NCBI GenBank assembly: GCA_012520595.1
Contig: JAAYNZ010000020.1
Coordinates: forward strand, 1-53,703
Reading direction: 5' to 3'
DNA length: 53,703 nucleotides
From: Candidatus Epulonipiscium sp.
GTDB taxonomy: Bacteria; Bacillota; Clostridia; Lachnospirales; JAAYNZ01
In this document: positions 9,289-11,154 of the stretch, piece after piece
Layout: every line of letters begins with the position of its first letter
Numbering within the stretch: position 1 is the stretch's first letter
Translations under genes and position numbers: made by a program
Notes under the pieces: generated by a model
The model's database searches: none
The model's input: the letters and a program-made list of their open reading frames with translations, nothing else
What the model was told of the DNA's origin: nothing

Positions 9289-9293
9289 AAATG

Positions 9294-9335
9294 AAAGAAG
9301 TTTCTTTGTATTAAAAAAGAAACTTCTTTTATTTT
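9294..9335 (+). terminator. Intrinsic terminator downstream of mgsA
   Basis: AAAGAAGTTTCTTT ... AAAGAAACTTCTTT followed by T-rich tract. Confidence 0.75.
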
Positions 9336-9421
9336 TGGAATAAGAAATTCATATACAACTCTTTCCCTACATAAGATATAGTAATAAAGGATGGATATGG
9401 ATACACAAAGGGGAGAAGGAT

Positions 9422-9862
9422 ATGAATTATAGAAAAAAACCAACACGAAGACAACCTATTAATAAAAGATCTCGATATAATCAAGAGAAAACAAAAAAAG
9501 AAAAAATCTTGCTTATTTTTTACAAACAGATAGTGATTAGTGTATGTATTTTTATTTGTTTTGTTGGGCTTAAAGTTTTACCATTTGTAGTAACAAAAAA
9601 TTGGATAAAGAATATTAATGAGAGCATATCCTATCAAGTGGAATGGCAACAAGTATATTATATGGCAACCCAATTACCGGCTTTTAAAACTTGGGTAGAA
9701 GAACAATGGACAAAAGAGAAGACGATTGAAGGTTCTGAGGATACTATAGAAGATCTAAAGGAAGAAAGCCCATTGGAACCAGAGCAAGAACAGGATATCA
9801 ATATTTTAGATGAGATAGAACAAAATCCGATAAAAGAGCAAGAAGGGTTATTGGGAAAGTAG
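9422..9862 (+). CDS. SpoIVFA-like protein, N-terminal frame (one TM plus acidic linker), ending at TAG directly after GGGAAAG
   Basis: Basic N-terminus, TM segment (IVISVCIFICFVGLKVLPFVV), Glu-rich linker; immediately upstream of a -1-frame M23 domain and spoIVFB. Confidence 0.75.
   Translation: MNYRKKPTRRQPINKRSRYNQEKTKKEKILLIFYKQIVISVCIFICFVGLKVLPFVVTKNWIKNINESISYQVEWQQVYYMATQLPAFKTWVEEQWTKEKTIEGSEDTIEDLKEESPLEPEQEQDINILDEIEQNPIKEQEGLLGK
9853..9859 (+). promoter_or_regulatory. Candidate -1 ribosomal frameshift slippery heptamer G GGA AAG
   Basis: X XXY YYZ phased to the zero frame, TAG as next codon, -1 frame open into the M23 domain. Confidence 0.5.
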
Positions 9863-10269
9863 ATTGGATTAATCCTGTTTATGGAATCATTACAGATAGA
9901 TTTGGAGAGAGAGAAAACCCCATATTAAAAAAGAAAGAATTTCATACAGGAATCGATATCGGAGCACCTTTAGGAACACCCATTATGGCTGTGCAAGCTG
10001 GAAAGATCAAAGAAGTAAAAAAATCTGCTACGTATGGTCATGTAGTTGTGTACGATACTATCGATGGGTATACTATTTTATATGCCCATTGTCAGGAAAT
10101 TTTTATTCAAGAAGAAGAGGAAATTCAACAAGGACAAATTATTGCTGCTATTGGGGATACAGGGTTAGCCACAGGGCCCCATTTGCACTATGAAATTGTT
10201 AAAGATGGAATTTTAATCGATCCCATACAATATGTATCTTTACCTTTTATTCGATCTTTAGAACCATAG
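9859..10269 (+). CDS. M23 (LytM) peptidase domain, C-terminal frame of the SpoIVFA-like protein; no obvious start codon of its own before the conserved region
   Basis: -1 frame translation VDWINPVYGIITDRFGERENPILKKKEFHTGIDIGAPLGTPIMAVQAG...GPHLHYEIVKDGILIDPIQY; HxxxD and HLH zinc motifs; ORF-track start at 9985 lies inside the domain. Confidence 0.85.
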   Translation, partial: VDWINPVYGIITDRFGERENPILKKKEFHTGIDIGAPLGTPIMAVQAGKIKEVKKSATYGHVVVYDTIDGYTILYAHCQEIFIQEEEEIQQGQIIAAIGDTGLATGPHLHYEIVKDGILIDPIQYVSLPFIRSLEP

Positions 10270-10284
10270 AGAAAGAGGTTATCT

Positions 10285-11154
10285 ATGTTTAAAATTCGTT
10301 TTCATCCATTAGTAATCATTTTATTTATGGTTTCAATTGCTCTAAATAAAGTAGGGCAATTTTTTATTCTATTTTTCGTGATTACTGTTCATGAATTTTC
10401 TCATATTTTAGCAAGCAAAAAAGGGAAGGTCAAATGCATAAAATGGAGTTTCCTTCCTGTTGGTCAAGCTGCTTTTATTGAAGATTTAGTATTGCAGCCT
10501 CCTTGGAAACAAACCATTATTTTATTAGCAGGTCCTATGAGTAATTTCATTATAGCTGCAATAGGGCATTTGTTTATAATGATAGACCATCCTTATGTTC
10601 AATTTTTCCTTATATCTAATATAGCGATTGGGATTTTTAATTTATTACCCATTTATCCTTTAGATGGGGGTAAAATTCTATATGGATGGTTGGCTCATTA
10701 TAGGGGCAATTTACAGGCTATGAAACAAATGTTATATCTTAGTCGAAAGTGGATAGAATTGCTAAAGGTTTTTGGTATAATACAAATAATTTTATATCCA
10801 TTTAATAGTAGTTTGCTTTTTATTTGTTTTTATCTTAACTATATAAATAAAAAACAGCAACTTTTTGGAACTTATGAATTATATAAAATGATGTGGATAA
10901 AACAGAAATATATAGATAAAACAGAAATGTGTAATTTTGTATATTGTCGCAGGACGCATGTAGAAACCTCATTTGCAAAAATTTTACAGACATTTTCGAC
11001 TTCACGCTATGATGTGTTTTTAGTTCAAACAAAAACAATTCAGCAACCTCAAATTATTTTTGAAAAAGAATTATTCGCTTATATATTAAAATATGGTATG
11101 GAGGGAACCATTGAAGATTATTTGGAGTTTCAAAAGAACCAAGCAAAATGTTGA
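10285..11154 (+). CDS. spoIVFB: Stage IV sporulation protein SpoIVFB-like site-2 (M50) metalloprotease
   Basis: HEFSH (HExxH) in TM context and LLPIYPLDGGKILYG (LDGG) motif; upstream of rng/rplU. Confidence 0.88.
   Translation: MFKIRFHPLVIILFMVSIALNKVGQFFILFFVITVHEFSHILASKKGKVKCIKWSFLPVGQAAFIEDLVLQPPWKQTIILLAGPMSNFIIAAIGHLFIMIDHPYVQFFLISNIAIGIFNLLPIYPLDGGKILYGWLAHYRGNLQAMKQMLYLSRKWIELLKVFGIIQIILYPFNSSLLFICFYLNYINKKQQLFGTYELYKMMWIKQKYIDKTEMCNFVYCRRTHVETSFAKILQTFSTSRYDVFLVQTKTIQQPQIIFEKELFAYILKYGMEGTIEDYLEFQKNQAKC

Follow-up and report, generated by a model that had tools for sequence, protein, structure and literature searches.

To our knowledge, conserved bacterial chromosomal frameshift genes are few outside mobile elements, prfB and dnaX. 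The -1 shift of lambda gpG-gpGT occurs on G GGA AAG and yields a stop-ended short product together with a C-terminally extended fusion; the gene described here carries the same heptamer, and the scheme that we propose for it is the same. Whereas lambda gpG-gpGT is a phage tail-assembly chaperone, the gene here is chromosomal and its extension is a LytM domain. The predicted protein also resembles a known sporulation factor. In Bacillus, SpoIVFA anchors and inhibits SpoIVFB; like SpoIIQ, it combines a transmembrane (TM) anchor with a LytM domain, and its gene lies right before spoIVFB, as is the case here. The LytM active sites of SpoIVFA and SpoIIQ are degenerate, and clostridia have been reported to be without a SpoIVFA orthologue (PMC3533761). 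In contrast to those degenerate sites, the zinc ligands are intact here, and the gene is split.

The window, by which we mean the whole stretch of 53,703 nucleotides analysed, comes from Candidatus Epulonipiscium sp. and belongs to a draft assembly of 230 contigs. The split gene and its surroundings comprise the following features.

9410..9419, + strand: ribosome binding site GGGGAGAAGG of the zero-frame ORF, by direct sequence reading
9422..9862, + strand: zero-frame ORF of 146 aa, with ATG 9422 and TAG 9860-9862 in one frame
9814..10269, + strand: open -1 frame with the M23/LytM domain and no start codon ahead of the domain
9840..9847, + strand: SD-like AAGAAGGG, 5' of the slip site, a possible stimulator that the sister species lacks
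9853..9859, + strand: slippery heptamer G GGA AAG, phased X XXY YYZ to the zero frame
9860..9862, + strand: zero-frame stop TAG, immediately 3' of the slippery heptamer
10285..11154, + strand: SpoIVFB-like M50 intramembrane protease, uninterrupted (PF02163)

The zero-frame ORF encodes a basic N-terminus, a single TM segment and an acidic linker, and has no Pfam or NCBIfam match. Its 3' end is TTA TTG GGA AAG TAG, and re-reading bore out what an earlier note on this DNA had described, namely a frame running from 9422 to the stop at 9860-9862, ending in TTG GGA AAG TAG (9851-9862), with the heptamer at 9853-9859 in the phase required for a -1 slip. The same note had the -1 frame open at GTA 9859. 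The M23 domain does lie in that frame, which extends to 10269, but the frame opens at 9814, bounded 5' by TGA 9811-9813, so that the two frames overlap by 49 nt; GTA 9859 would be the first codon read after a slip. The domain matches PF01551 at ~9940-10224 (102 bits, E 1.9e-29; cut-off 28.7 bits) and has its HxxxD and HxH zinc ligands, as had been noted. The -1 frame was also said to have no sensible start of its own, and it contains no ATG, GTG or TTG from its opening to 12 codons inside the domain. The identification of the next gene as a SpoIVFB-like M50 protease holds by its PF02163 match, and an M50 gene occupies the same position in many relatives. A terminator-like hairpin with a T-rich tail (9291-9335) separates the split gene from a methylglyoxal-synthase-like gene upstream, and because of it the split gene is probably transcribed from a start of its own. 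A similar hairpin is found in the sister species.

The split recurs throughout the order to which this bacterium belongs. In congener G001, the one other species of the genus compared, the M23 half is 73% identical, and the split falls at the same codons (TTG GGG AAG TAG), again with M23 in -1. Of the 392 genomes searched in the order, 91 contain a close M23 match. These and a few weaker ones were parsed, a split locus being a TM-bearing ORF that overlaps or abuts an M23 ORF in a different frame; long-ORF M23 matches that lack an adjacent M50 gene (e.g., L013, L016-L018, L020) represent different M23 proteins and were set aside. The split is present in 84 genomes from 34 genera and 11 families, made up of the window, its sister and 82 further genomes, with the M23 half in -1 in 49 and in +1 in 35; several of these loci are on single-contig assemblies. 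The earlier note had held that its proposal would fall if close relatives all had one uninterrupted ORF and no slippery site, whereas an intact single ORF was found within the order in genus g30 only (family f11; L010, L098-L100, L104, L111, L115). Outside the order but within the class, 17 loci have a single ORF of 249-341 aa immediately before the M50 gene, the latter being recognised by its HExxH motif; those whose sequence was read have the same TM-linker-M23 layout. No short M23 frame occurs among the matches outside the order. The single distant match in Sporosarcina (L039) is probably spoIIQ, judging by its neighbours, murA and a spoIID-like gene.

In a tree of M23 domains, a single group (SH-aLRT 86) unites all split genes with those of g30 and excludes the intact outgroup. 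The tree requires at least six changes among four labels, a count from a short alignment that does not fix the number of origins. The intact g30 copies group with the +1 genus g11, and therefore the frame may have been repaired in g30. Across 12 pairs, dN/dS ranges from 0.08 to 0.40 in the first half and from 0.03 to 0.19 in the M23 half; between the window and its sister the values are 0.27 for the zero-frame half and 0.15 for the M23 half. Purifying selection acts on both halves. The zinc ligands HxxxD and HxH are retained in all 84 M23 domains of split loci.

The junctions themselves carry distinctive motifs. Of the 35 loci with a +1 split, 34 have CCC as their last zero-frame codon, although CCC accounts for 20% of the remaining proline codons in these ORFs, and 34 have TAG as their zero-frame stop, compared with 4 of 35 M23 frames of the same loci that end in TAG. 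In the -1 group, an X XXY YYZ heptamer, mostly A AAA AAG or A AAA AAA, is in phase in 30 of 49 loci, and the other two phases give 13 and 8. The pattern is also seen by genus: seven of eight +1 genera are all CCC, and in-phase heptamers occur in 16 of 26 -1 genera versus 6 and 8 out of phase. The p-values attached to these motifs count related rows as independent and are thus overstated. Ribosomes are already known to slip on all of these motif classes. In E. coli, C_CCA_AAG, G_GGA_AAG and A_AAA_AAG rank highest in efficiency among -1 heptamers (PMC4066793), and CCC_UGA serves +1 shifts in Listeria phages, in which relatives differ in shift direction (PMC5009743).

Comparison of the junction in relatives, which the earlier note had suggested as a check, gave a divided answer: the split and the zero-frame stop recur in 84 genomes, but the exact GGGAAAG is not kept. 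The congener has GGGGAAG, an imperfect heptamer (G GGG AAG), and the motif class changes between lineages, so that a strictly conserved GGGAAAG heptamer is rejected; in this respect the gene differs from the lambda gpG-gpGT comparison case. Within f24, g39, g41 and f17, slip motifs are invariant while their flanks drift, as with TTG GGG GAG in family f24, AAA AAA TAG in genus g39 and CCG GGG TRA in genus g41. At the f24 junction (L004, L006, L040-L042, L044, L045, L047), the nine bases TTGGGGGAG do not vary, and a -1 slip there would use G GGG. In g39 (L061, L063, L069, L071, L077, L079, L081, L095), CTTGGGGCA lies ~30 nt after the slip site and is nearly invariant as DNA, possibly reflecting a coding or stimulatory constraint. 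The overlap is without an X XXY YYZ heptamer in 19 of 49 -1 loci, 13 of which have an in-phase GGGG or AAAA, and no recognised slippery motif is present in the overlap in genus g94, L107 and L109. In g94 (L082, L083, L087, L096), M23 is in -1, and three of the four loci end in GAA TAG CCG.

Possible stimulators are less uniform. An SD-like sequence just 5' of the slip site is commoner than expected at +1 sites (median 23rd percentile within the same ORF). The duplex energy of AAGAAGGG in the window is at the 9th percentile of its ORF, and alignment with the sister finds no such element there. No stable RNA structure was found downstream in the window (z 0.41) or in the +1 group (mean z 0.09), and the -1 group has a slight tendency only (mean z -0.64). 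No conserved downstream structure emerged that could serve as a general stimulator.

We propose, with high confidence, that this gene is expressed by programmed ribosomal frameshifting and has been conserved as such across a bacterial order, because the split is order-wide, the slippery motifs are phased, both halves are under selection and fused homologues exist elsewhere. The same observations strongly support the earlier note, which had put forward programmed frameshifting from the window alone. The TM/linker half would be translated first, and most ribosomes would presumably stop at TAG; where termination wins, a 146-aa anchor-only product would result. A fraction would slip -1 on G GGA AAG, with tRNA-Gly and tRNA-Lys re-pairing with GGG AAA, and would thereby enter the LytM frame and complete a fusion of ~282 aa. 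In relatives, the same outcome would be reached by a -1 slip on A AAA AAR or G GGG or by a +1 slip on CCC UAG. By inference, ribosomes do slip here in vivo, and the fusion would be a LytM protein that is anchored in the membrane, takes part in spore development and carries its domain outside the membrane. Bacteria with the split gene thus very probably make a membrane-anchored cell-wall-enzyme protein through programmed frameshifting, and the gene family is best read as indifferent to the direction of the shift. Because the zinc ligands are intact, the LytM domain may be an active hydrolase, unlike those of Bacillus SpoIVFA and SpoIIQ. More tentatively, the order may have kept the gene interrupted since its common ancestor while swapping -1 and +1 sites instead of restoring a single frame, with the ratio or conditional production of the anchor-only and LytM-bearing proteins as the trait under selection during spore development; sensitivity to release factor 1 is conceivable because UAG is almost invariant at the +1 sites.

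An error in sequencing or assembly, or a recent indel that turned the gene into a pseudogene in this strain, would be compatible with the draft state of the window assembly and with the fact that changing one base would bring the frames together. However, the homologous place is also split in the congener and in 82 further genomes, several single-contig assemblies among them, both halves are under purifying selection, and zinc ligands are kept in 84 of 84 M23 domains. The sister species and the 82 further genomes rule out error or decay, to which we assign next to no probability; the loss of one base from the run, which the earlier note had offered as a simple alternative, is likewise rejected by the split in the sister and in several single-contig assemblies. 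Transcriptional slippage on a homopolymer run, by which some mRNA would acquire an altered base number, could draw on the runs of at least 7 A at the junction in some relatives, and is extremely unlikely as an account of the family: according to Antonov et al. 2013, such slippage usually needs poly-A over 7 (PMC3711429), whereas neither the window GGGAAAG nor the f24 TTGGGGGAG nor the CCCTAG sites contain a run that long, and the phase of the motif matters.

Alternatively, the locus could encode two proteins, with the M23 half started by translational coupling (re-initiation) at the zero-frame stop. Many loci have some ATG, GTG or TTG in the M23 frame close to the junction; 33 of 84 loci, those of the window and its sister among them, nevertheless have no start codon there. 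Moreover, a LytM domain that lacked its TM anchor would remain cytoplasmic, the homologues in other orders are fused, and an in-phase CCC or AAAAAAR would be needless. We therefore consider re-initiation very unlikely in general. In two loci of genus g41 (L112, L116), a GTG overlaps the zero-frame TGA (GTGA), which favours the two-protein reading there and makes re-initiation possible; close relatives are without it.

What the programmed frameshift would serve is a separate matter. Lying directly before a spoIVFB-like gene and encoding a TM anchor and a LytM domain, the split gene has the SpoIVFA layout, and the NCBIfam matches of intact L010 and the two window halves include no SpoIVFA family model. 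In the model of the earlier note, SpoIVFB activity and sigma-K timing would depend on how much product carries LytM relative to product that lacks it. This model gains from the SpoIVFB synteny in the window and many relatives, from the established anchoring and inhibition of SpoIVFB by SpoIVFA in Bacillus, and from the presence of SpoIVA in 30 of 30 genomes examined, which is consistent with sporulation but not proof of it. Yet SpoIVFB gave no match in 14 of the 30 genomes examined, all split; sensitivity was limited, and a contig end truncates G148. Since the split persists in f24 and several f17 genomes that have no SpoIVFB match, the link to SpoIVFB has little force as a general account. 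The proposal is further weakened by the 84 of 84 intact zinc ligands and by the missing SpoIVFA model match, and we now regard it as unlikely. Because of that missing match and the reported lack of a clostridial orthologue (PMC3533761), which also counts against the ratio model, we file the gene only as a 'SpoIVFA-position LytM protein'.

Importantly, this gene is split in 84 species of one order, in both directions and with recognisable motifs, at a sporulation locus that has been described as without a SpoIVFA orthologue in clostridia. Gene callers likely output a truncated TM protein and an M23 fragment or pseudogene, thereby missing the real product. In the literature searched, which took in the main text of Antonov et al. 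2013, no earlier report of the gene as a frameshift case was found. That text has no M23 or peptidase entry; it describes a GeneTack 'Spore germination protein' cluster, also spore-related but a different protein, for which frameshifting was seen experimentally in E. coli at up to 13% (PMC3711429). The Listeria phages PSA, A118 and A500 shift +1 on CCC_UGA, a proline CCC followed by a stop as here, and there too relatives differ in shift direction for one protein (PMC5009743); those are phage structural genes, whereas here the site is mostly CCC_UAG and lies in the order's own gene. Like the split gene, prfB (+1) and dnaX (-1) are conserved chromosomal frameshift genes, although unrelated ones: prfB has an SD-like sequence near its site, as the +1 loci here do more often than expected, and dnaX uses A AAA AAG, as do some of the -1 loci here. 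Each of them shifts in one direction as a rule, whereas -1 and +1 alternate between lineages in the present gene. The proposed mechanism itself is a known one; what is unusual is its order-wide persistence and its switching of direction in a cellular gene.
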